From positions 1 through 28,896 of the IMG/VR virus record IMGVR_UViG_3300027797_002174: 28,896 nucleotides of DNA; one strand, given 5' to 3'. A program made the translations under genes and the position numbers. This DNA is from a virus. Shown one piece after another: positions 2,035-16,580 of the stretch. A model generated the notes under the pieces. It searched no databases. It saw nothing but the letters and a program-made list of their open reading frames with translations, and was not told the origin of the DNA. Numbering within the stretch: position 1 is the first letter of the stretch; each line of letters opens with the position of its first letter.

Positions 2035-2050
2035 TATTTATGAATAAATA
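2035..2050. promoter_or_regulatory. Palindromic divergent pair of T4 late-like promoter boxes
   Basis: The 16 bases TATTTATGAATAAATA form a perfect inverted repeat, TATTTAT / GA / ATAAATA. Read on each strand it gives ATAAATA, 7 of 8 matches to T4 late TATAAATA (CATAAATA on the minus strand, AATAAATA on the plus strand). The minus copy is well placed for the gene starting at 2015. By T4 geometry the plus copy would start RNA at about 2056, the first base of the SOD start codon. Promoter activity is inferred from the match alone. Confidence 0.5.
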
Positions 2051-2055
2051 TCATT

Positions 2056-2616
2056 ATGTACAACTTTATTAAGCATATTACCCTAAACGAGGGTCACACT
2101 CCTAAAACATTGGAGCAGTCTCCTTTGCCGTATGCCAAAGACGATTTGGAACCAGTTAAAAGCGAAAAAACTATAGACTATCACTACGGCACATTATACA
2201 AAGGCTATGTGGACCGTTACAACAAAGGTGAAGGCGATGCTGACTTCAACGAAGCAGGTGCTTTTTTGCATGACATATATTTCAAACAATTTCACAAACC
2301 AGTTGGTAACAACCATCCTGAACACATATCTTTGAACTTTATCAATAAGCATTTTAAAACATTTGATAATTTTAAAGACAAAGTGCAAAAATCTGCCATG
2401 GGCATACAAGGTTCTGGATGGGTATATCTAGCACGAGATGGATCAATTAAAACCATCCAAAATCACCAAATCAAAATGGATATTATTCTGTTAATTGATT
2501 GGTGGGAACATGCGTGGGCGTTGGATTATCAAGCTGACAAAAAAGCCTATTTGCGCAACATATACAAAATTATCAACTGGAACTTGATCAGTTCTAGAAT
2601 TGGTCGAGTGTCTTAA
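2056..2616 (+). CDS. Fe/Mn superoxide dismutase homologue
   Basis: This 186-residue protein has the Fe/Mn SOD fold signature. The alpha-hairpin half carries L-P-Y-A-K-D-D-L-E-P (24-33) and D-Y-H-Y-G (41-45). The C-terminal half has G-S-G-W (119-122), D-W-W-E-H-A-W (148-154) and Y-L-R...I-N-W (165-175). The four metal ligands are all present: H43, H72, D148 and H152. The gateway tyrosine corresponds to Y51. The second-sphere Gln of many SODs is replaced by H137 (N-H-Q), as in mycobacterial-type Fe SODs, while the usual H30-type residue is L47. It may therefore convert superoxide to peroxide and oxygen, most likely with iron or either metal. There is no signal peptide, so it should be cytoplasmic. 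Length is close to normal. The 3' end overlaps the convergent zinc-finger-like gene by 23 bases. I see no good ribosome site at the start, which may be leaderless. The fold call is strong; activity is untested. Confidence 0.87.
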   Translation: MYNFIKHITLNEGHTPKTLEQSPLPYAKDDLEPVKSEKTIDYHYGTLYKGYVDRYNKGEGDADFNEAGAFLHDIYFKQFHKPVGNNHPEHISLNFINKHFKTFDNFKDKVQKSAMGIQGSGWVYLARDGSIKTIQNHQIKMDIILLIDWWEHAWALDYQADKKAYLRNIYKIINWNLISSRIGRVS

Positions 2617-2939: not shown

Positions 2940-3263
2940 ATGATCACTATTTCCGAATCAGCAAAAACAAAAATCAAAGATTTACTCTACGAAGAGGGCA
3001 ATCCAAAACTATCATTACGTACTTTTGTACAAGGGGGCGGCTGTAGCGGATTCAGCTACGGATTTACTTTTGACGAAGAAATGAATGAAGACGATTTTCA
3101 ATTGCCTTTAGACGAATTTAAGGTACTTATAGATGCAATGAGTATGCAATATCTGTCAGGTGCTGAGATAGATTATAAAGAAGATTTACAAGGCAGTTCA
3201 TTCAGCATAAAGAACCCCAACGCAACTTCAACTTGCGGATGCGGTTCTAGCTTTGGAGTTTAA
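2940..3263 (+). CDS. erpA: ErpA/IscA-type (HesB family) iron-sulfur cluster carrier
   Basis: This 107-residue A-type carrier is expected to receive an Fe-S cluster and pass it to client enzymes. The three family cysteines are present: C35 in G-G-G-C-S-G-F and C99/C101 in T-C-G-C-G-S-S-F. The stretches G-F-T-F-D, M-S-M-Q-Y-L and N-P-N-A-T-S-T-C are very close to proteobacterial ErpA. The ATG at 2940 is preferred over an upstream TTG at 2913 because GAGGG lies 5 bases before it and it gives the normal family length. The ribosome site of the giant fibre gene (GGAG at 3255-3258) lies inside the erpA end, so the two are likely co-transcribed. HesB-like genes are known in marine T4-type phages. The client is unknown. 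Confidence 0.92.
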
Positions 3264-3266
3264 TAA

Positions 3267-6200
3267 ATGGCACAAAATATAATTGATATTGGCGTACAGG
3301 GTAACGACGGAACAGGCGATAGTATCCGCACATCATTTGATAAAGTTAATAAAAACTTTAACGAAATCTATGCTATCTTTGGCGGTGGTGGAACTATACC
3401 ATTTACCCAGCTGGCTGATGCTCCTGCTAGCTATTCAGCTAATCAAGTTATTATGGCCGCCACTACGGGTGGTGCTTTAACTGCACGAACAATACGAGGA
3501 ACAGGCGGTATTACCGTTATTACTTCAAATAACAGCGAAGTAGTTATTAATAGTAGCGATACAGGATTGGCAGCTGAGACAACTCCTACTTTAGGTGTAT
3601 CATTAAATGCTAATTCATTTACCATTGGACGTTTAGGCACACCTAGTCAAGCACTAGTGGATGCGTTTAATATCACTTTTCCAAATACTCCAACAACATT
3701 GTCTCAATTGGCAATCAGTAAAGGATATGCAGATTCTCGTTATATTGCTGTGTCTACAACAGGTGCTGTTGAAGGACCGTTAAAATCAAGAGATGAACCG
3801 CTGACACCTCAAATAGGTGTTAGTGGATACGATGACAGTTTAACCAGCAACTATCTTGCAACTGAAGTTATGCAACGTAAGGACACAGTGTACCGAGGTG
3901 GTGATACCATGACCGGTGCATTAACATTGAGCGATCATCCTAGTCCCATGGCTGGACAACAAACTCCCAATACCAGTGACGATTTACAAGCAGCCACAAA
4001 ATTTTATGTTGATAATAACACTTACTATAGCGGTGTTAATCTTTATGTTTCAGCTACCAAAGGTGACGATTTGCAATCCAAGACACCTGCTGGGCGAGAA
4101 GGTCGAGGATTTCAGTACGCATATAAAACTGTGGGTGCGGCTGCACTTCAAGCTGACAATTTAATTAATCTAAGTAATACTGAGCCTGGTCCATATAGAC
4201 AAACTATCACGTACACAGTTGGTCCAACTCAATACAAATCAACAATACAAAATGTTGTGTTGTCGGGCGGGAATTCTGGCATTTCTGGATACGTAGATGC
4301 GGCCGCACTATTAAGAGCAAATAAACAATTTATTCAATATGAAACTATTGCATATCTAAATAAAAAATATGTCAATGCATTTACAATTGATCAACCATAT
4401 TGGACAAATATAATTGGCAGAATTGTTGAAGGAGTAAGTTACGATTTAGTATTGAGTAATGATACTGGTTCTAACATAACTAATTACAACTCCGTTACTC
4501 AAACTTCAATTTTATACAATTCGTACAACGCCGATATTATTGCAAATCAGTTGAGCCAGTTAATAGACGGAATAACCTATGCTAAACAGCAAATATTAGA
4601 TTTTAGTTATGACACCACTGATTTACAAACATACGTTGGTTCACTAGTTGACGCATTAACTTACGATTTAGTTTTTGGTGGCAACTATCAAAGTATACAA
4701 GCGGCTCTTGCGTTTGCAGGTGCAGGAACTGATTTATCAAACGAAGAACTATCAGATCTTATTGATTATAGTTCTATTCAAGTTATTAGTTTGCTGACTA
4801 ACGGTAGTGATATCACGTTTACATTTGCAAGTCAAGACAGTGTTCCATACAAAGTTGGAAGTGATGTTATTATTAAAGGAATGGTCCCAATAGGTTACAA
4901 TGGAACATTTACTGTTACTGCTGTAACTAACAATAGCGTAACCATCAGTAGTGCATACATTACATCGTTAACATCTGCATCATTTACTGGACGTATTGAC
5001 AACGGTACTATTGGGCAGTCTGGAACAAAATTAACAGTGACTGGTTCTGTTACAGGAACTATCACTGTGGGTATGTCTTTGAGCGGTGGTAATATTCCCG
5101 TAGGAACATACGTGTCGTCTCAATTTTCTGGCACGCCTGGAGGAATAGGAGTATACATTCTTAGTTCAACATTGTCTCAAACATTGACCTCAATTGTTGG
5201 TGTGAGCAATGCTGTTGTAACGCCTGGAGTTATTGTAAAAAGCAATATCATTAATAATATTTTACAAGCCAACGGTGTGAGTGATAACACAACTGCGGTG
5301 AATTCATTAACAAGTAATGCTACTATTATTTCAAATATTCTAATTAGTGGTAATATTCCTGATTTTGAATTACCAACACAATCCGCAAATACTACTGGAC
5401 AAAAAAGTGCCGCAAGTTTGTTGTTGTCTAACATTAAATTTATACAGGCAGAATTAACTTCATATATCACTGAAAATTATCCAAATTTATCTTATGATAG
5501 AGTTGCGTCACGACGAGATATAGAGTATATTGTTTACAGCTTAGTATACGATTTACTATACGGTGGCAATAGCCAAAGTGTGTATGCAGGAAACAGATAT
5601 AGATACGGCGGGCTACTTCGTGTAACAACCGCAGAGCAACCTGCATGTGTGACGGCAATTGGCTATTTTAAAGATAAATTATTATCATTTATTGTAGATA
5701 ATAAAGCACCAGTTACATTGTTACAACAAACTGTATCTCAGTATACCAATGAAACATTAACTGGCGGGCTGGCATCGGCCAGCAGTTTAACAACAAACCT
5801 TAATTCTATTCAGCGCATAATTGACGGCACAGTTTTATCCCCAACTGTAACTTTGCCTACAACTACAACCACAAGTTCGTCATTACAAACTTTAAGAACT
5901 GCTATTCGAGCAAATACAAATGCATTAAAGAGTGTTGCATTAACATATGTTAATGCTAATTTTCCAGTTATTAATACACCAACTATTATTGCCACTGTCA
6001 ACAGTTTGTTCAGTTCAATAACTGATACGCTAACATTGGGCATTAGCACTAGACCAACAGTTAACTATAATTTTCCTGCTGGATTATCGACCGGATACCG
6101 CAATGCAATTTCATCTATTCTAAACAACTTGGATTTCATCAGTGCTGAGGCAGTGGCATGGATGAACATAAACTTTGCTGGAACTACTGGTCTTAACACC

Positions 6201-9200
6201 AAGAGTCTTAGAGATATAAAATATTTGCTAGAAGCCATTTGCTACGATTTGGCTTATGGTGGAAATTCAGCAACCATAGCGGCCGCAAAACAATTCTGGG
6301 CCAACGGATTACAAATTGTTGGTCTTAACGGACTCACGCAAGCATGTTACGGTGCTATAAATCATGCTCAAAATATTACAAAAGTGGTGGCGGCAAATGG
6401 TACAGTAGTACCTGTATACCAAAGCCCAGTTACATATCCTCAAGTAACTAGTGGATTACTTACCGGTGGGGCTGGGGCTGGCGGATTCATTGATCTTCGA
6501 TTCAACGAAATAAAAGATATAATGGCAAATAACACAGTGTATACGCCAACATATCCAATTTTAACCAGCTTTGATAGTGCATTGCAGGCAGCGGCAACTG
6601 TTATTAGAAACAATACTGCAACAATTAAAGATGATACAATTGATTACCTTGTTAAAAAATACGCAAGTAATTTTACATATAATGAAGCTACTTGTTTTAG
6701 AGACATTGGTTACATAGTAGACGGTTCAGCTATAGATTTGTTAACCGGTGGTAATTATCAATCAGTTAACGCAGGTAAGAGCTATTATAGAAATAGCAGT
6801 GCTAAATCTATTGCTATAGGCACTCAATTGACCGAAACAGTTGACGGCATTGAATTTGCTCGAAGTCTTGGACAACAAGTATTAAACAAAACAGTAGCCA
6901 ATCGTTATCAAACACAATATGTACAAGTAATAGGTTCACTAGCTCCATCAACTGCGGCTAAAAATACTTTCACAAGTAACTACAATATTATTTTAGATAT
7001 TATCAAAAGCGGATACGGAGTTGCTCCAACTGCAAGTTTTGGTACTGGAATTTATTCTATAACATTTGACAACGGTGGTAACGGATTTGTTGACCAAGGC
7101 GGAAACATCACCCCAGGAGCTCAGAGTTCAATTCATATTATTCCTGGAAAAATTCTAACAGGCAATGTATCAAACGCCTACGGACAAATTGTAAGTTATG
7201 AATCAGGAGGCGATGGCGATATTGCAAATGATACCATTACTGTAAGATTAACGCAACCAGGATTTTTCTCCGTAGGTGAAACGTTAGACTTTGGTGAAAC
7301 TGTTAACGATCTCAACATTACAATTTATGTAGAAAGTGGAATCTATTATGAAGATTACCCAATTAAGTTATCGGCTAACGTTACACTAAGTGGTGATGAT
7401 TTCCGTCGTACAATTATTCGTCCGTTAAACAGGATTAGTCAAAGCCCATGGCGTAATACGTTCTTCTATCGCGATGCAATTATTGACGGAATTCAGACTG
7501 GACTGATAGATTTTACCACTGACTATGCAACACCAGCTAACACATCTGCAACAATAAGCGGAACAACAGGAAATATATCAATTGCCTTGAGTAATAACGT
7601 TCAAGCATTAGCATCCTGGGTAGGCAAAGTGTTTATGGATGCCAGTGCTGAAACAGGACTTGCTGGTAAAGCTATCGTTAATACTGTTAGCGGTAACGTG
7701 ATGAACTGTACAGTTATCTATCCGTTTGTATCTGCTACAACGTATACAACAGGTAACTGGCACTTGTATGGAACATATAACTATGGTCGTCATTACTTAA
7801 CTAATCCTATTATTACAGAAGGTACTATTCAAGCTTCATTTGCTGGAATTATTGTTGGCGATCAATTGACAGTTGCTAATTTAATAGGAAATATTACTAT
7901 TGGACAGTTGGTATATGGTACTGGGGTAATTGATGGCACAAAAATTATTCAGAAACATCCAACTGAACTATCGAAATGGACTGTTAACTTTAGTCAGTCA
8001 GTGTCAACAAACATGACTGTTGTTAACACTGCAAAGAATAATAAAGAACTAGACGCATTCTTAGTTAATGATGCAGTTAGAATTAAATTGATAACTGCGC
8101 AAGGCCATGGCGGATTTATGATGGTGCTTGACCCAACCGGTCAAATCAAAACCAAATCGCCGTATTGTCAAGAATCTGCCAGCTTCTCAGGAAGTCTAGG
8201 CAGTGCCAAACGCTTTGCTGGTGGACAGTTTATTGACGGATTTGCAGGACGATTATTTGGAACTGTTACAAACATTGTCAATGAAGGTCGAACAATTACC
8301 GTTACAGGGGCTACCAACAGCGGACTAAATCTAAGACCTCCACAAGTACCTTGTGCATTTTATGTTGCAGGTGTTCGTCAGCAAATCAACGACGTACTTA
8401 CTTGGGATCCCACAGGCAACGGATCTGTAACATTGACATTGGATAACAGTACTCCTTTCAATCTTTCAAACGCATATAACACAAACACCAGTTTATTTGT
8501 CAATCGACTGGGATACACAGTTGAATCGGCTAATTTAGACATGGTGCTTGGAAGTAATTATAAATCTACTGCTGTTGGTTTATCATTCTTACAACCAACA
8601 AATGCATTAAATTCAATTGGTAAACTACTAACCGTTCAAGGTCTTGCGTATGCTAATACGCAGATTCAAGCACAGACATTTACTGGAACGAGCCAGTTAA
8701 TCAGTGGTAATAAAACTTCGTTTAACACAAACATATCGTTAGTAACAAGTATTATCAACAACTTACTAGATGCAGTTCCAGTTAATAGCGCAACTACTCG
8801 TAGTGCTATATTTGGTTCTAAATGGGATGATGGATCAAATGCAGCCAGGGCCGCAAAGATTATACAAACCAATAAAGAATTTATTAAATTAGAAATTGCC
8901 GCTTGGATTAGCAGTAACTATAATACACAAGCTATTATTGGATATAGTGCAGTAAACACTCAGCGTGATACAGGTTACATTTTAGATGCTATTACTTTTG
9001 ACATATTATATACCGGAAATAGTAGTGTATACGATCAAGCCCTATCTTACTACTATGCAAGTAGTGGTAGCACTACTGGGCCCATATTCAACGGAACCAT
9101 TAGCGGAACAACTCTAACAATAAACAGTTTGGCTTCGGGGGAGCTTGCTATTGGTCAAGTTATTACTGGTGCTGGCGTTACTACAAACACTGTGATAACA

Positions 9201-12200
9201 GGCGGTAGTGGAACATCCTGGACTGTTAACTTCTCGCAATCAGCTGGTCCAATAGCAATGTACAGCTCAAGTCAATCTAGCTACCTAACCCAACCAGCTG
9301 TTTATGTTGCGGCCATGGGTAGATTAAATAGTGTAGTTCGAGACTGTATAGTAAATGCATCAGTGGCACCAAGTGCTGGTAATCAATTATCACAAGATAC
9401 AAGTTTAACTGTGGCAACTTCAACTGAACAAGGAATAGTTACCACATTAACCAACTTGTTAATTGATTATATTGCCGACGGTGACTTTGACACACCAACA
9501 ACAAGAACGATTCCAACTATTTCAGGATATGGTACTAGTTACACAAACTGGGGAGTAGTTAATTCATCAATTAATACCATAAAGACCAATACACTAAGTT
9601 ACTTGAACACTGGTGCTGGCCTTGGCATAAACATCGAAATGGGCGGTAATAAGAGTATGTTGGCCAACGACTTTACTCAAGTCAACGATTTAGGTTATGG
9701 TATTCTATGTACCAATGCTGGTTTAACTGAACAAGTTAGTACATTCACGTATTATTGTCATACTGCTTATTGGGCGTTGAACGGAGCGCAAGTTCGAAGC
9801 GTTGCTGGATCAAATGCAAACGGTAACTACGGTTTACGTGCTACCGGTTTTGACGTTACTGAATTGCCAGACAGTGTTAATTTAACGTATAACATGGTGC
9901 AAAGTGCAATTGTGTATAAACAAGGTTCATACTCGACTGCAATGACTCCATCTGCAACTGCACAGGCATTACGAGTTTATATCGTTGGTTACGAGTATAT
10001 TCCAGCCAATACATCTGAATTAGAAATTGATCATACTGCATCAGGTGGTGGCATTGTACGATACGAAATATCTACAGTTACGCATACTCCGGTTACAATT
10101 AAAAATCAAAACGTTCTTGAATTACAATTAAGTACATCCGGCGCTAGCGGAACTAGCACAACTGGTCTAGCCACAGCATTGTATGATGGACAAAGTGTAA
10201 CTATTCGTGTGTTACAGAATTTTAAATTCCAAAATATTGATAACGTTAAGCCAGTTAGACCAAGTACAGCGTTACAATTTGTAACTAACCTGGGTGACAT
10301 TTATCGTATTATTAACTACACATTGATTGAATCAACTGGAGAACCGTTTGCTACCAATAGTGGTATCAGCATTTTAAGAACAGACTCCAGTTTTGCTTAT
10401 TATAAACTAGTTACCGATACAAATTACTTGGGTGCGGCTGATCCAACCACTAACATTACTGCGGTAGTTGCATACGGGGGTGCTGGTAACAGCACCAGTA
10501 GTACCACACTGACTGTTCGTCAAGTTGTTGGCACAATTGCCTTTGGACAAATTATTGGCGGTGCTGGATTCAACGGACAAAAGGTAGTGTCTGTAACAGC
10601 AAATTCCGCAACAGCAAGTTCTTGTACAATTAGCGGAACAACATTGACAATAGGTGGTAGTGTTACAGGTACGTTTACTGTTGGTATGGGTATCAGCGGT
10701 GTTGCGTCTGACACATACATTGTTAGATTAGTTAGCGGATCAGGCGGCGCTGGGACTTACACTATTAGCCCAAGTCAAACAGTAGGTTCAACTACTGCTA
10801 TCACAGGTACAACCAGTACTGTTGTAGTCAGTGCTGTTCCAACATTAGCACCTGTTGGTCCTGTGTTTTTCTCAACTAGTACACAGGGTAAAAATGTTAG
10901 AGATAACAAATTTGCTGTTACAGGATTGACAAATACTGCTACAATAAACCAATTAAATAAAGCAATTTATGTTTTAGGGTGGAATGGTAGAACTCATCGT
11001 ATCACAGGATATATTGATCAACAAAATATAGCTACTGGTGCGTATGCACCCGGTGGCAGTAGCGGAACAACTCTTAACCTTACTGGGGTGTCTGGAACTA
11101 TTGTTCAGGGTAGACTAGTCACAGGAACTGGATTTGATGGCACACATTATGTACAATCGGTTACTACATCTTCAGGTGGCGGCACAACCTCTGCTACTGT
11201 TATATTAAATAAAGCTCCCAGCAGTCCAGACGGGGCAATACCGAGCGCCACTATAACTTTTGGTATTTTTGCCAATGCTTATATAGCAATTGATCCTAAC
11301 CCAGTATATAATACCAGTGCGGTTGGCACTGGAGTAAATGCATTGACTTTTGCAGGTCAGCGTTTGCTAGCAGGTAGTACAACTCAAAAGATTGTAAAAT
11401 TCACAGTTCCGTATAATGCCAATGCAACTACAAACTATCCAGTACTACCACCAGTTGATAGTACATTAACTATTACTGGTAACGCTAATACAAATTATAA
11501 TGGCAGCTATCAGGTAGTAGGAGCAGTTAATACCACACAAGTTACATTAAGTGGTACAACTAATAACACCACTGCAAAACTTGCAGTTGGTATGGTGGTT
11601 AGATCGGCAACCGCTGGTGCGGTTATTCCTGATTCTACGGTTATTCAAAGTATTGATAGCATATTAAAGTTTACTGTATCCCCTGCGTGTTGGATCCCAG
11701 CAGGTGCTGTGCTAGTTTCTACGGCGGTTGCAACTGTTGATTCGCTATCATCATCAAGTAATATTGGTTCAGGTTACCTTGCTGGATTTCCTCCAACTGT
11801 TGTGTTGACAGGTGGTAATTATGGACGAATTGCATTATTCACGGCAACTGTTAACAGTGATGGTACAATCAACGTTACTAAAGTTGACCCTGGTTACGGT
11901 TACGAGTTCGCACCAACGGTACAGTTTGTGGGTGGTAGTGGAACTGTTTCACAAGTTATCACAGCAATTTTATCACAGCCAAGCGAACAAACCACAACAT
12001 CATTGGGCGGTATAAGTGCTCTTAAGCTGGATTTACTATATCCAGTTGATCCAGGAACAGCTGGCACAGTTTCTAATACAACAACGGGAGCTCCTAGTAC
12101 TGTCATACTGAGTACAAGTGCCAACATTACAGTTGGTAATCCAATCACATTTGGTGGTACAACCTTTGGTGGAGTAAGTGGAGCAACTGCAACAGCTGGG

Positions 12201-15200
12201 GCATTTACCATAGGACAATCATATACTATTGTGTCGTTTGGTGCTGACACAGCTACTACCTCAGTTACAGACTTTACTGCAATTGGTGCTGTACAAAACG
12301 CCATTGGTACAATATTCAAAGCAACTGGCGCTGGCAGCGGAAGCGGAACAGCATTAATAACATATTATATCAATAGTGTTAGTGGTCCAAATATCACTCT
12401 CAGTACATATTTTGGTGGACCTGCACTAGCATCACCAACAATTACAACTGACAGTGGTTCAATGACATTCTACAGTCCAAGTTTTACTCTTGGTACTGGT
12501 ATTACTATAAGTTCGTACACAACCAAATCTGGTTCAGGTCCATACTTGGTTACATTTGCAATTCCAACTAGCAGTATAACCAATGGTGCTTACTATGTTG
12601 TGTCTGGAAATAGTAATACATTGTACAACGGGGTATTTGCATGTACTAGTGCAACCAGCGGAAGTGCAACGAGTATTCAATTGAGTTACCCGTTTGATCC
12701 AGGAACATACGGGTCGGGCACTACCACTGTTACTAAAGAAACAACCGCAGGTACAAGCAGTGGTTTAGGTATTAGTAAATCATTCCCTACCTCAGGGTCT
12801 GTGGTATTGAGAGCAGGCTATCCAAGTGGACAAGCAGGTCAAATTACAGTACGTATCAGTACATGTCGTGCAACTGGACATGACTTCTTAGATATTGGTA
12901 CTGGTGGATTTAATACTTCAAACTATCCAAACCAAATCTACGGTAATGCTACTATACCATCAAATGCATCAAATCAAACTGTTGAAGAAACAGTGGGACG
13001 TGTATTCCATGTAAGCACTGACGAAAATGGTATTTTCCGGGTTGGTCGATTCTTCACAGTTGACCAAGGTACTGGTACTGTAACATTCAGTGCAAGTATT
13101 GCGTTGAGTAACTTGGATGGATTGGGATTTAAACGCGGTGTGGTTGTTACTCAGTTTTCAACTGATGCAACAATGACTGAAAACGCTCCTGAAATTGTTC
13201 CAGTACAAAGTGCTGTTCGCGGATTTGTTGACTTACGTTTGGGCTTGGATTATGGCGGTAACCCTGTTCCAACTAACACATTAATTGGTCCAGGTTATCT
13301 ACCATTGAATGGTGCGTTGGCCATGAAGAGCAATCTCAACATTGGTAACAACTATATTACAAACTTGTATATGCCTGCAAGTTCAGTAAGTCCGTACGAT
13401 GGCGTTAACAGATTGTATGTTGACAACAGCGTGGCAGGCACAAATAGCATTGCCAAACTAAAAGATGTTTCAATTCTAGCAACAGGAACATTTGTTAGTT
13501 TAAACAGTGCTACATTAACTGTGAGCGGATTGTTTGGTTCACTAATGATTGGACAACGAGTAGTTAATTTAGCAACTGCAACTGTATGTACAATCTCGGG
13601 TAATACACTAACTGTGGGCGGAATTGTTACTGGTATATTTGCAGTGGGTATGACCATTGCAGGCCCTGGTGTTCGTGCAGGTACAACTATTACAAGTCTT
13701 GGAACAGGAATTGGTAACGCTGGAAACTACACAGTAAGCGGAGCTGTTCAAACTGTTCCAGTAGGTATTCCACTTACTGCTACAGGGTTGGTGTTTTCAG
13801 GACAGACTGTTGATGCGTTTACTATCAATGGAGCCAACACAGTAGTTACTTTGAGTAGTGCTCCTGGATCATCTCCAAGTTCACAGATTACTATTGGATT
13901 CAGCAGTAGTGTTGCTGGTGACGTATTAACATACGATGCAGTGTCTGCAAGTTGGAAGAACGTGAGTTTACCAACAACCAGTACTGGCAACGATGTAACT
14001 ATTACTTACAATCCTTCAACTGGCTCGGGCGGATCATTTACAACTGCTATCCAAGATGGTAAAATTACCAACGCCTTGGTCAGTGCTACAGCGGCAATTG
14101 TACAAAGTAAGTTGAGTATGACATTGGCTACAACTAGATCTACTGCGCCAATAAATAATGGCGCAACACCTCCAGTTACATATACAGCGGCTGAGAGACA
14201 GGCATTCAGTGGTTTAGCTAGTTTTGACAATGCATACTTTACTGCAACCAACGGTTGGATAACTATTGGTAGTTCTAGTTCAACTACTACGGGTATTGGT
14301 TACGATAAAATTCGTTATGTAGGTGCAAATGCAATTCTAGGTAACTTAACCAATACTGCTACAACTATTCAAGAAGTAACAACAGGAGCAATTGTTGCCG
14401 CAGGCGATGGTATTAAAAATGCCACGTTTGGTTCATTCAATGGTGCAATGATACACGCCTGGGACGCTGCCACCAGTACCCATTCTTATAGTATTACTGC
14501 AATCAGTGACAACGGTGCCGCTAGCAGTATAGTTAAAACTGATCTCAACAGTATTGTTACTGCTACCAAATTAAAAATTGGAAATTCCAGCGTTGCCAAT
14601 CTAAGTTTAGACGCAACTGCAACTACACAGTTAAACTTGACAACTCCTGGCGGAATTAACTTCCTTACTGCAATTGGTACTACTACCAGCAATACTACAA
14701 CAACACTTACTGGCACATTTGATGCCACTAGTGGTACAATAAAAGTTGAAGATATTACCACAGGAGCAGTTGAAACAGTTGGTGATATTGTAGGTAATTG
14801 GAAAGTTGGTGCTAGTAGCACATGGGATGTTACAGCAGGTACATTAAAATCCACAACATTAAAAACTGGTGCCAATACTACTACAGGTGATATTGAAGGC
14901 AACTGGAGTTTAACTGCCAGCAGTGTTATTAATACCAAACTAGGAACTTTGAGATCCAAAACACTTGATGCTGGCAATGTGTCTACCACTTACACAGCGT
15001 CTGGTTCAAGCGGAACAACTTTAAAAGTGGCAAGTAGTGCTGGCATTGTTGCTGGTATGTTTGTTAGGGGTGTAGGTTTTATTACTGGACAAACTGTGGA
15101 CAGTGTGTCAGATACCACAACAGTAGTGTTAAGTACGCCGCCCACGACAGCTCCGGTTAACGGACAGGCATTGACATTTATAACTCCTGGCGCTATTAAC

Positions 15201-16580
15201 GGTGCATGGACACTAAATGGCACACTATCGCTTGATGGAATTAGTGACCTAACACTTGGTAATGGTAACTTTACTATGGGCAATGGTAACTTAACCGTTG
15301 GTAACAGCACTGTGGATATGAGCAGTAACACTGCACTATTAAAAGTTAGACACATTAGCACTGGTCTAGCAGCCACAACTGGCGATGTTATTGGTACTTG
15401 GACTGTGGCCAATGGAAGTACATTTGTTGCTACTAGCATTGTGAGTCAGGCCAATAGTGCAACAATTATTGCGGCATTAGGATATACAACTAAGATTGTG
15501 GGAATTACAAGTATAACTTATGTTGGTACTGCTATTACTGTAAACACATCGGCTCCCCACTTAATAACTGGTAATACTAGTGTTACTATTACAGGAACTA
15601 CTGCAACAACTAATCCGCCTAATGGAACATTTACAGCTACAGCAGTTAATGCAACACAATTTACATTTACAGCAACATCAACTCCAACAGGAACTGTTGG
15701 TGTGGGTTCTGCTACATTGACTATTACTGGTACAATTGATAAAATTGTAGCTAAAGATAGTGGCGGTAACTTTACCATTGCTGGTACTATGACTGGTACT
15801 GCTACTAAGGCCAATAACTTAACTGGTGGCAATGCAACAACGTTGCTAGGTAGCATACCATATCAAAGTGCCGCAGACACAACAACACTACTTGGGCCTA
15901 ATATTTCAGTTGTTAAGAAATATCTAACAATGACTGGTGACGATACTAACGGTGCGGCACCTTCATGGAGTGCGCTTGGAGTAATTGATGCCGCACAAAC
16001 TGCAAATACCATATACGCAGGACCAACGGTCACGCCAGCGGCAACACCAACGTTCCGTGCAATGGTGGCAGCTGATATTCCACCGTCACTGGTTGTAACA
16101 ATTACAGAACTAAAGACCAATATCTTAACTGCAAATAACAGCGGCACTGGAGTAGTAAAAGGTGCGTGGACTTTAGACACCGATGCCAAATTTCAAGCTA
16201 CCTATGCTGACTTGGCAGAATACTACGAAGGTGATCAAGAGTACGAACCTGGAACTGTTTTGGTGTTTGGTGGTGATAAAGAAGTTACCACAACAACAGT
16301 AATTAACGACACACGTTCAGCTGGGGTTGTTTCAACAGATCCAGCATACACTATGAACCATGCACAAACAGGTATCAGAGTTTGTATAGCACTTGCAGGT
16401 CGTGTACCATGTAAGGTTGTTGGTCGTGTTAAGAAAGGTGACATGTTGACCACTGCGGCTACACCAGGCTATGCTGTTAAGGCATTGAATCCAACACTGG
16501 GTAGTATTATTGGTAAGGCATTAGAAGACAAAGACTACGGCGAATCCGGAGTCATACAAGTTGCTGTAGGGAGAGTATAA
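3267..16580 (+). CDS. Giant (4437-residue) tail-fibre-like virion protein
   Basis: This single uninterrupted ORF of 13.3 kb encodes a huge modular structural protein, about four times the length of T4 gp37. It begins with a 40-residue motif shared with three later genes (N-D-G-T-G-D-S-I-R...N-K-N-F-N-E-I-Y). Around residue 210 comes the fibre motif G-G-D-T-M-T-G, followed by A-A-T-K-F-Y-V-D. Near 259 is L-Y-V-S...G-D-D, the usual lead-in to a pectin-lyase-like beta-helix. Seven diverged copies of a (R-D-I-x-Y-I)...Y-D-L-x-x-G-G-N unit lie at about 391-1911. A beta-helix-like part near 1350-1387 has V-E-S-G-x-Y-Y-E-D-Y-P, and G-H-G-G-F-M-M-V-L-D-P lies near 1613. At least eight small T-L-T-V..G..VG beta modules are scattered from 580 to about 4000. 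A fibre segment (F-H-V-S-T-D-E-N-G) starts near 3247. The end (4311-4437) has A-D-L-A-E-Y-Y-E and G-V-V-S-T-D-P, like C-terminal domains of phage appendages. It is Thr/Gly/Ser/Val-rich. GGAG lies 8 bases before the start. A role in host recognition or tail architecture is inferred. Confidence 0.9.
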   Translation: MAQNIIDIGVQGNDGTGDSIRTSFDKVNKNFNEIYAIFGGGGTIPFTQLADAPASYSANQVIMAATTGGALTARTIRGTGGITVITSNNSEVVINSSDTGLAAETTPTLGVSLNANSFTIGRLGTPSQALVDAFNITFPNTPTTLSQLAISKGYADSRYIAVSTTGAVEGPLKSRDEPLTPQIGVSGYDDSLTSNYLATEVMQRKDTVYRGGDTMTGALTLSDHPSPMAGQQTPNTSDDLQAATKFYVDNNTYYSGVNLYVSATKGDDLQSKTPAGREGRGFQYAYKTVGAAALQADNLINLSNTEPGPYRQTITYTVGPTQYKSTIQNVVLSGGNSGISGYVDAAALLRANKQFIQYETIAYLNKKYVNAFTIDQPYWTNIIGRIVEGVSYDLVLSNDTGSNITNYNSVTQTSILYNSYNADIIANQLSQLIDGITYAKQQILDFSYDTTDLQTYVGSLVDALTYDLVFGGNYQSIQAALAFAGAGTDLSNEELSDLIDYSSIQVISLLTNGSDITFTFASQDSVPYKVGSDVIIKGMVPIGYNGTFTVTAVTNNSVTISSAYITSLTSASFTGRIDNGTIGQSGTKLTVTGSVTGTITVGMSLSGGNIPVGTYVSSQFSGTPGGIGVYILSSTLSQTLTSIVGVSNAVVTPGVIVKSNIINNILQANGVSDNTTAVNSLTSNATIISNILISGNIPDFELPTQSANTTGQKSAASLLLSNIKFIQAELTSYITENYPNLSYDRVASRRDIEYIVYSLVYDLLYGGNSQSVYAGNRYRYGGLLRVTTAEQPACVTAIGYFKDKLLSFIVDNKAPVTLLQQTVSQYTNETLTGGLASASSLTTNLNSIQRIIDGTVLSPTVTLPTTTTTSSSLQTLRTAIRANTNALKSVALTYVNANFPVINTPTIIATVNSLFSSITDTLTLGISTRPTVNYNFPAGLSTGYRNAISSILNNLDFISAEAVAWMNINFAGTTGLNTKSLRDIKYLLEAICYDLAYGGNSATIAAAKQFWANGLQIVGLNGLTQACYGAINHAQNITKVVAANGTVVPVYQSPVTYPQVTSGLLTGGAGAGGFIDLRFNEIKDIMANNTVYTPTYPILTSFDSALQAAATVIRNNTATIKDDTIDYLVKKYASNFTYNEATCFRDIGYIVDGSAIDLLTGGNYQSVNAGKSYYRNSSAKSIAIGTQLTETVDGIEFARSLGQQVLNKTVANRYQTQYVQVIGSLAPSTAAKNTFTSNYNIILDIIKSGYGVAPTASFGTGIYSITFDNGGNGFVDQGGNITPGAQSSIHIIPGKILTGNVSNAYGQIVSYESGGDGDIANDTITVRLTQPGFFSVGETLDFGETVNDLNITIYVESGIYYEDYPIKLSANVTLSGDDFRRTIIRPLNRISQSPWRNTFFYRDAIIDGIQTGLIDFTTDYATPANTSATISGTTGNISIALSNNVQALASWVGKVFMDASAETGLAGKAIVNTVSGNVMNCTVIYPFVSATTYTTGNWHLYGTYNYGRHYLTNPIITEGTIQASFAGIIVGDQLTVANLIGNITIGQLVYGTGVIDGTKIIQKHPTELSKWTVNFSQSVSTNMTVVNTAKNNKELDAFLVNDAVRIKLITAQGHGGFMMVLDPTGQIKTKSPYCQESASFSGSLGSAKRFAGGQFIDGFAGRLFGTVTNIVNEGRTITVTGATNSGLNLRPPQVPCAFYVAGVRQQINDVLTWDPTGNGSVTLTLDNSTPFNLSNAYNTNTSLFVNRLGYTVESANLDMVLGSNYKSTAVGLSFLQPTNALNSIGKLLTVQGLAYANTQIQAQTFTGTSQLISGNKTSFNTNISLVTSIINNLLDAVPVNSATTRSAIFGSKWDDGSNAARAAKIIQTNKEFIKLEIAAWISSNYNTQAIIGYSAVNTQRDTGYILDAITFDILYTGNSSVYDQALSYYYASSGSTTGPIFNGTISGTTLTINSLASGELAIGQVITGAGVTTNTVITGGSGTSWTVNFSQSAGPIAMYSSSQSSYLTQPAVYVAAMGRLNSVVRDCIVNASVAPSAGNQLSQDTSLTVATSTEQGIVTTLTNLLIDYIADGDFDTPTTRTIPTISGYGTSYTNWGVVNSSINTIKTNTLSYLNTGAGLGINIEMGGNKSMLANDFTQVNDLGYGILCTNAGLTEQVSTFTYYCHTAYWALNGAQVRSVAGSNANGNYGLRATGFDVTELPDSVNLTYNMVQSAIVYKQGSYSTAMTPSATAQALRVYIVGYEYIPANTSELEIDHTASGGGIVRYEISTVTHTPVTIKNQNVLELQLSTSGASGTSTTGLATALYDGQSVTIRVLQNFKFQNIDNVKPVRPSTALQFVTNLGDIYRIINYTLIESTGEPFATNSGISILRTDSSFAYYKLVTDTNYLGAADPTTNITAVVAYGGAGNSTSSTTLTVRQVVGTIAFGQIIGGAGFNGQKVVSVTANSATASSCTISGTTLTIGGSVTGTFTVGMGISGVASDTYIVRLVSGSGGAGTYTISPSQTVGSTTAITGTTSTVVVSAVPTLAPVGPVFFSTSTQGKNVRDNKFAVTGLTNTATINQLNKAIYVLGWNGRTHRITGYIDQQNIATGAYAPGGSSGTTLNLTGVSGTIVQGRLVTGTGFDGTHYVQSVTTSSGGGTTSATVILNKAPSSPDGAIPSATITFGIFANAYIAIDPNPVYNTSAVGTGVNALTFAGQRLLAGSTTQKIVKFTVPYNANATTNYPVLPPVDSTLTITGNANTNYNGSYQVVGAVNTTQVTLSGTTNNTTAKLAVGMVVRSATAGAVIPDSTVIQSIDSILKFTVSPACWIPAGAVLVSTAVATVDSLSSSSNIGSGYLAGFPPTVVLTGGNYGRIALFTATVNSDGTINVTKVDPGYGYEFAPTVQFVGGSGTVSQVITAILSQPSEQTTTSLGGISALKLDLLYPVDPGTAGTVSNTTTGAPSTVILSTSANITVGNPITFGGTTFGGVSGATATAGAFTIGQSYTIVSFGADTATTSVTDFTAIGAVQNAIGTIFKATGAGSGSGTALITYYINSVSGPNITLSTYFGGPALASPTITTDSGSMTFYSPSFTLGTGITISSYTTKSGSGPYLVTFAIPTSSITNGAYYVVSGNSNTLYNGVFACTSATSGSATSIQLSYPFDPGTYGSGTTTVTKETTAGTSSGLGISKSFPTSGSVVLRAGYPSGQAGQITVRISTCRATGHDFLDIGTGGFNTSNYPNQIYGNATIPSNASNQTVEETVGRVFHVSTDENGIFRVGRFFTVDQGTGTVTFSASIALSNLDGLGFKRGVVVTQFSTDATMTENAPEIVPVQSAVRGFVDLRLGLDYGGNPVPTNTLIGPGYLPLNGALAMKSNLNIGNNYITNLYMPASSVSPYDGVNRLYVDNSVAGTNSIAKLKDVSILATGTFVSLNSATLTVSGLFGSLMIGQRVVNLATATVCTISGNTLTVGGIVTGIFAVGMTIAGPGVRAGTTITSLGTGIGNAGNYTVSGAVQTVPVGIPLTATGLVFSGQTVDAFTINGANTVVTLSSAPGSSPSSQITIGFSSSVAGDVLTYDAVSASWKNVSLPTTSTGNDVTITYNPSTGSGGSFTTAIQDGKITNALVSATAAIVQSKLSMTLATTRSTAPINNGATPPVTYTAAERQAFSGLASFDNAYFTATNGWITIGSSSSTTTGIGYDKIRYVGANAILGNLTNTATTIQEVTTGAIVAAGDGIKNATFGSFNGAMIHAWDAATSTHSYSITAISDNGAASSIVKTDLNSIVTATKLKIGNSSVANLSLDATATTQLNLTTPGGINFLTAIGTTTSNTTTTLTGTFDATSGTIKVEDITTGAVETVGDIVGNWKVGASSTWDVTAGTLKSTTLKTGANTTTGDIEGNWSLTASSVINTKLGTLRSKTLDAGNVSTTYTASGSSGTTLKVASSAGIVAGMFVRGVGFITGQTVDSVSDTTTVVLSTPPTTAPVNGQALTFITPGAINGAWTLNGTLSLDGISDLTLGNGNFTMGNGNLTVGNSTVDMSSNTALLKVRHISTGLAATTGDVIGTWTVANGSTFVATSIVSQANSATIIAALGYTTKIVGITSITYVGTAITVNTSAPHLITGNTSVTITGTTATTNPPNGTFTATAVNATQFTFTATSTPTGTVGVGSATLTITGTIDKIVAKDSGGNFTIAGTMTGTATKANNLTGGNATTLLGSIPYQSAADTTTLLGPNISVVKKYLTMTGDDTNGAAPSWSALGVIDAAQTANTIYAGPTVTPAATPTFRAMVAADIPPSLVVTITELKTNILTANNSGTGVVKGAWTLDTDAKFQATYADLAEYYEGDQEYEPGTVLVFGGDKEVTTTTVINDTRSAGVVSTDPAYTMNHAQTGIRVCIALAGRVPCKVVGRVKKGDMLTTAATPGYAVKALNPTLGSIIGKALEDKDYGESGVIQVAVGRV
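4408..9030 (+). repeat. Seven diverged protein repeats (Y-D-L-x-x-G-G-N units) in the giant fibre gene
   Basis: Units centred near 4437, 4660, 5547, 6243, 6733, 8536 and 8997 share the pattern R-D-I-x-Y-I-x-(D/E)-x-x-x-x-D-L-x-x-G-G-N-(S/Y)-Q-S. The two outer units and the sixth are the most diverged. Spacing is irregular (about 75 to 600 residues), so these are scattered domains rather than a tight solenoid. Confidence 0.75.

Follow-up and report, generated by a model that had tools for sequence, protein, structure and literature searches.

The superoxide dismutase gene and its neighbourhood

The stretch of viral DNA analysed here, referred to as the window, is 28,896 nucleotides long (IMG/VR record IMGVR_UViG_3300027797_002174) and carries on its plus strand, at 2056-2616 with the stop codon included, an ATG-initiated open reading frame for a 186-aa Fe/Mn superoxide dismutase (SOD). 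Both Sod_Fe_C (3.7e-22) and Sod_Fe_N (1.1e-8) were matched in excess of the curated cut-offs of Pfam, in which Fe/Mn superoxide dismutases are represented by PF00081 and PF02777, and the best matches among solved structures were Fe-SODs, headed by 8avm (1.5e-24). Structure prediction and comparison with Fe/Mn SODs, put forward as a check in the preliminary description of this DNA, yielded a confident AlphaFold2 model from 43 aligned relatives (mean pLDDT 90.4, pTM 0.85), the top PDB matches of which were SODs or SOD-containing complexes according to Foldseek; the E. coli Fe-SOD 1isa was superposed with a TM of 0.83 and an rmsd of 2.1 Å. By its domains and fold, as well as by its three His and one Asp metal ligands (H43, H72, D148 and H152), the protein is a member of SodFM. 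The features of the locus are collected in Table 1.

Table 1. Features in and around the SOD gene, in window coordinates
Feature	Position	Strand	Basis
ATAAATA, T4-late-promoter-like motif, 5 nt ahead of the SOD start codon	2044..2050	+	
Leader MYNFIKHITLNE, proposed capsid-targeting propeptide	2056..2091	+	Extension, motif, dN/dS, disorder
Proposed gp21 cut between codons 12 and 13	2091/2092	+	gp21 rule (PMC9026906)
His43, metal ligand 1	2182..2184	+	217/217 phage relatives
Leu47, replacing the usual second-sphere His (His30 of other SODs)	2194..2196	+	Leu in 217/217 phage relatives
Tyr51, gateway Tyr	2206..2208	+	217/217 phage relatives
His72, metal ligand 2	2269..2271	+	217/217 phage relatives
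His137, water-coordinating second-sphere His, C-terminal His state	2464..2466	+	217/217 phage relatives
Asp148, metal ligand 3	2497..2499	+	217/217 phage relatives
His152, metal ligand 4	2509..2511	+	217/217 phage relatives
ErpA-type Fe-S cluster carrier, no N-terminal extension	2940..3263	+	NCBIfam ErpA equivalog, 161 bits vs cut-off 117

The ErpA neighbour is a recurrent companion, located on the same strand and at most 1.5 kb downstream of SOD in 172 of the 210 loci with enough flanking sequence, and this gene order suggests that the pair forms an Fe-S and superoxide module. Elsewhere in the window, positions 3267-16580 hold a single 4437-aa ORF, probably a giant tail-fibre-like protein, and a 169-aa ORF at 22910-23419 matches only the start of the catalytic part of DNA polymerase III alpha (PF07733); comparison with phrog_11127 (171 positions) makes the latter seem a conserved short form.

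Active site and position among Fe/Mn SODs

Ten residues (H43, L47, Y51, G68, H72, H137, D148, W150, E151 and H152) are invariant in all 217 distinct phage SODs listed, and the position two residues ahead of the Asp ligand is Leu (193) or Ile (24). The Fe/Mn SOD assignment and the four ligands given in the preliminary description are thereby borne out, and its residue numbers were right for the gateway Y51, for H137 in place of the second-sphere Gln and for Leu47 in place of the usual His. Since the metal site is complete and invariant, the sequences argue for a working enzyme, and the C-terminal His together with the Leu ahead of the Asp ligand would suggest that it is Fe-using or cambialistic.

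In a small sample of bacterial SODs drawn by pattern search, the place equivalent to Leu47 is His in 57 of 57 aligned sequences, the place equivalent to His137 is mostly Gln, and His occurs in nearly all at the position that is Tyr or Ala (residue 48) in the phage proteins. Both His of the HxxxHH motif are accordingly absent from the phage SODs, although three of them do have His in the final position. Most members of SodFM3/4, to which the mycobacterial SODs belong, show the C-terminal His state (PMC10172142), in agreement with the earlier likening of H137 to mycobacterial-type Fe SODs. Nevertheless, the phage proteins do not conform to SodFM3, in which HxxxHH accompanies the C-terminal His: the latter is present and the former reads HxxxLY. 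SodFM4 is missing the last His of HxxxHH (PMC10172142), while in the phage group the first is lost as well, to Leu, and the tree with which we compared them was drawn without a defined SodFM4 set. SodFM3 and SodFM4 are the nearest in the second sphere, and with SodFM1-5 the phage SODs have in common the fold, the four ligands, the gateway Tyr and the C-terminal water-coordinating His; they differ from them by HxxxL[YA] instead of HxxxHH, an N-terminal leader, a shorter helical hairpin, a shorter loop ahead of the Asp ligand and a separate branch. The homologue search and tree, likewise proposed at the outset, placed the phage SODs in one group with a support of 100/100, apart from 21 bacterial SODs.

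Distribution of phage SODs

Scans of IMG/VR anchored on the SODs of the window, PA5oct and Vibrio phage 2.275 returned at least 594, at least 563 and at least 588 confirmed stretches, respectively, and SOD genes in freshwater phages were described in 2019 (PMC6802176). The gene is therefore not rare in phages, contrary to the preliminary view that it is uncommon there, nor is a phage-borne SOD a novelty. Among named phages, close relatives of the window SOD occur in the PA5oct group (41.6% identity) and in Vibrio phage 2.275 (39.5%). PA5oct gp223 and sodB of MIJ3 and Callisto fall on the same phage branch as the window SOD and carry the leader MNDSIKKYISIAE/A (the slash marks the expected cut, here and below); they are separated from it by a long branch and have ClpS, Hsp20, QueD and FtsH as neighbours.

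Matches in bacterial genomes that fell inside the phage group were considered as cellular SODs, but they are probably not, to judge by the look of their contigs. One of them (L407, from a Methylophilaceae MAG) is the sole 'bacterial' row within the phage group of the tree, as a partial gene, and its QueD, ClpS-like and Suf-like ORFs resemble those of a phage contig. By eye, its positions 4001-7800 hold a phage-type SOD fragment, QueD and a ClpS-like ORF, followed directly by SufB-, SufC- and SufS-like ORFs; this may be a phage that carries genes for Fe-S assembly. The other (L403, from a Polaromonas MAG) starts inside a phage-type SOD and continues through erpA, 70% identical to phage erpA, into apparently bacterial genes; it looks like a phage-host join at erpA, which either arose in assembly or hints at a phage erpA derived from such a host. 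A gp23 search of the L407 and L403 genomes gave no match.

A late-promoter-like motif abuts the start codon

The motif ahead of the window SOD is representative of the family, as 160 of the 217 phage SOD genes have [AG]TAAATA 4-7 nt ahead of the ATG, and many of the remaining genes have CTAAATA or TTAAATA at that place; among random ATGs, 0.8% have [AG]TAAATA 4-6 nt upstream. It resembles the T4 late promoter, TATAAATA. Late-promoter patterns are not in excess in the window (6 found vs 10.9 expected), and the evidence consequently resides in their place and not in their number. On this ground late expression of SOD, as presumed in the preliminary description, is supported by the upstream sequences. 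The distance between motif and ATG fell into two groups in six genomes, 4-7 nt and about 14-33 nt, and if the T4 start-site rule holds, the former would be candidate leaderless mRNAs. In the window and in the genomes G001, G003, G016, G018 and G024, many start codons have the motif ending 4-7 nt ahead of them, next to the second class at about 14-33 nt; a further late-like motif of the window lies at 2916-2922. On the minus strand, a small ORF at 1785-2015 encodes C-terminal Ala-Lys-Lys-Ala-Pro repeats that resemble a basic histone-type tail, and it has its own late-like motif at 2035-2041 (minus strand).

An N-terminal leader ending in the gp21 motif

The prohead protease gp21 of T4 cleaves after L/I-X-E, cleavable propeptides, 10-19 residues long, at their N-termini direct the internal proteins of T4 into the prohead, and the first 10 residues of IPIII suffice for prohead entry (PMC9026906). 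With the L-x-Y that opens the fold as reference point, the distance from start to fold has a median of 23 residues in phage SODs vs 8 in bacterial SODs, and the extra stretch is disordered in the AlphaFold2 model. The N-terminus of the window SOD reads MYNFIKHITLNE/GHTPKTLEQSP, and a cut after Glu12 would leave 11 residues ahead of the fold, near the bacterial length. As expected of a CTS cargo, a short N-terminal leader ending in L/I-x-E thus precedes the predicted mature protein. The leaders of other lineages are dissimilar, namely MAYNFIQKFIVE/G, MELRDHINLVE/A, MNDPTSFRTLIE/K, MSEFRKYITLVE/S and MKLHDFLTE/D, in addition to that of PA5oct.

Among 24 dissimilar leaders, chosen without regard to the motif and each shuffled, 23 contain L/I-x-E vs 9.7 expected, a count reached in 0 of 20,000 shuffles; the strict form, which takes account of position and permitted next residue, is found in 19 leaders vs 2.2 expected. 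The motif alone was dropped as evidence, given that L/I-x-E also occurs near the start of 15% of the other genes of SOD-bearing phages and at the N-terminus of 5 of 49 bacterial SODs. Across the leader codons of the MYNFI group, dN/dS is approximately 0.03 with synonymous changes near saturation, which indicates that the leader peptide itself is selected. Furthermore, the neighbouring ErpA lacks an extension, so a leader is not a habit of the SOD locus. The idea that the MYNFI leader is common to other proteins was rejected: SODs account for 93 of the 95 distinct ORFs that have it, and truncated SODs for the remaining two, so that different proteins do not have identical leaders. The SODs of Vibrio phage 2.275 and L275 lack the leader, from which it follows that the gene can persist without packaging.

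Prohead protease and virion proteins of SOD-bearing phages

The window is a fragment without head genes, and the presence of gp21 was accordingly assessed in its relatives, where all 11 SOD-bearing records that are 280 kb or longer, and a further one of 223 kb, contain gp21 (PF03420). The PA5oct group and Vibrio phage 2.275 both have T4-type gp21 and gp23, and gp23 was found in four of the four gp21-positive SOD-bearing records tested. Near the expected cut, the phages' own gp23 reads LLE/S in G001 and LAE/S in G003. In three SOD-bearing genomes, members of PHROG 14802, which is filed as a virion structural protein, start with MK[ST]F.[QE]YL[VIT]E, a leader similar to those of the SODs.

In the PA5oct record an ESI-MS/MS note is attached to the SOD, gp223, and also to gp282, the PA5oct member of the PHROG 14802 family; structural proteomics of this phage is cited in PMC6950013. 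The proteins so noted are mostly portal, capsid, tail and other structural proteins, and the list also includes ribonucleotide reductase, thymidylate synthase, ligase and FtsH. These enzymes are probably carry-over, and the presence of SOD there may be so likewise.

Discussion

We propose that the SOD of a T4-like freshwater phage is a late product, transcribed from a T4-type late promoter, and that the first 12 residues would act as a capsid-targeting leader by which the enzyme joins the scaffold core of the prohead. There gp21 would cut after Glu12 (LNE/G), leaving the trimmed SOD in the head with the DNA, and at the next infection the enzyme would be ejected together with the DNA and clear superoxide ahead of any phage gene expression; it may also shield the DNA in the head during the extracellular phase of the particle. 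The analysis establishes the SOD family and fold, the invariant metal site, the conserved leader with its gp21 motif, the late-promoter-like motif and the gp21 of the relatives; packaging, cleavage and ejection, along with catalytic activity, metal and benefit, we infer, and we regard this course of events as probable. A packaged, gp21-trimmed and injected SOD is, as a prediction, the best-supported mechanism.

The closest parallel lies in IPI, IPII, IPIII and Alt of T4, which like the phage SODs have a short N-terminal leader ending in L/I-x-E and belong to a gp21 phage, and by this analogy the SOD is likely packaged and ejected as the T4 internal head proteins are. It differs from them in that the cargo is a cellular-type metalloenzyme and in that leader sequence and spacing are unlike those of IPIII. 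In the chlorovirus PBCV-1, a Cu/Zn SOD (A245R) is made late and packaged in the virion, and superoxide is lower in cells infected by PBCV-1 than by a virus without the SOD gene (PMC7019647). The likeness is that of a late viral SOD, packaged there and predicted to be packaged here, whereas fold and metal are unrelated, the virus is eukaryotic and a gp21-type leader is lacking. In the literature searched, which covered few subscription papers, we found no report of a packaged SOD in a tailed phage. More broadly, we lean towards the view that a large branch of phage SODs, distinguished by a second-sphere signature of its own, is carried in T4-like heads by diverse gp21-cut leaders and injected. 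An antioxidant enzyme would thereby be delivered together with the genome, in convergence with the packaged Cu/Zn SOD of chloroviruses.

A different and, in our judgement, rather unlikely explanation is that of an ordinary auxiliary metabolic gene, where SOD works in the infected cell to guard the host, Fe-S enzymes or replication, and the N-terminal peptide serves another role, e.g. in stability or partner binding. This is how the many oxidative-stress genes of freshwater phages have been read (PMC6802176), the conserved ErpA neighbour fits a module for Fe-S protection in the cell, and the existence of leaderless relatives is in line with it. However, it leaves unexplained why the gp21 motif is kept across dissimilar leaders, why the length after the cut is near-bacterial and why the PA5oct SOD carries an MS note, and late timing is a poorer fit than early timing would be. 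The preliminary description had pictured a working or retuned enzyme in the infected cell; the conserved metal site favours that part of it which concerns the enzyme, while the N-terminal leader and the ErpA neighbour had been overlooked.

It is very improbable that the protein is a structural core component with a SOD fold and lost catalysis, e.g. a scaffold or a DNA-binding internal protein: the leader suggests a head protein, and Leu47 and Tyr/Ala48 occupy two second-sphere places where almost every bacterial SOD in the sample has His, but a purely structural role needs none of the ligands, gateway Tyr, His137, Trp150 and Glu151 that are invariant in 217 sequences. We give hardly any credence to the notion that the N-terminal codons are kept for translation of a late mRNA starting at or next to the AUG, and not for the peptide; the motif-to-ATG distance, which peaks at 4-7 nt in SOD as in numerous other genes, would agree with it, yet leader residues are kept while synonymous sites approach saturation, and other genes with an abutting motif have unrelated N-termini.

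The Leu47/His137 site defines an extra branch that the published SodFM scheme, in a paper without mention of viruses (PMC10172142), did not discuss. The SODs of phages have been interpreted as metabolic genes that aid the infected cell. If the enzyme is packaged, as we favour, SOD would be active from the very onset of infection as well as in the free particle, and superoxide would therefore be a hurdle to the entry or survival of phage DNA for which carrying a dedicated cargo pays off. The packaged SOD would also constitute a natural and widespread case of enzyme delivery through a T4-type leader, and it would provide a rule by which others could be sought, namely that a gp21 phage encodes a protein of known fold preceded by an extension with L/I-x-E at its end.
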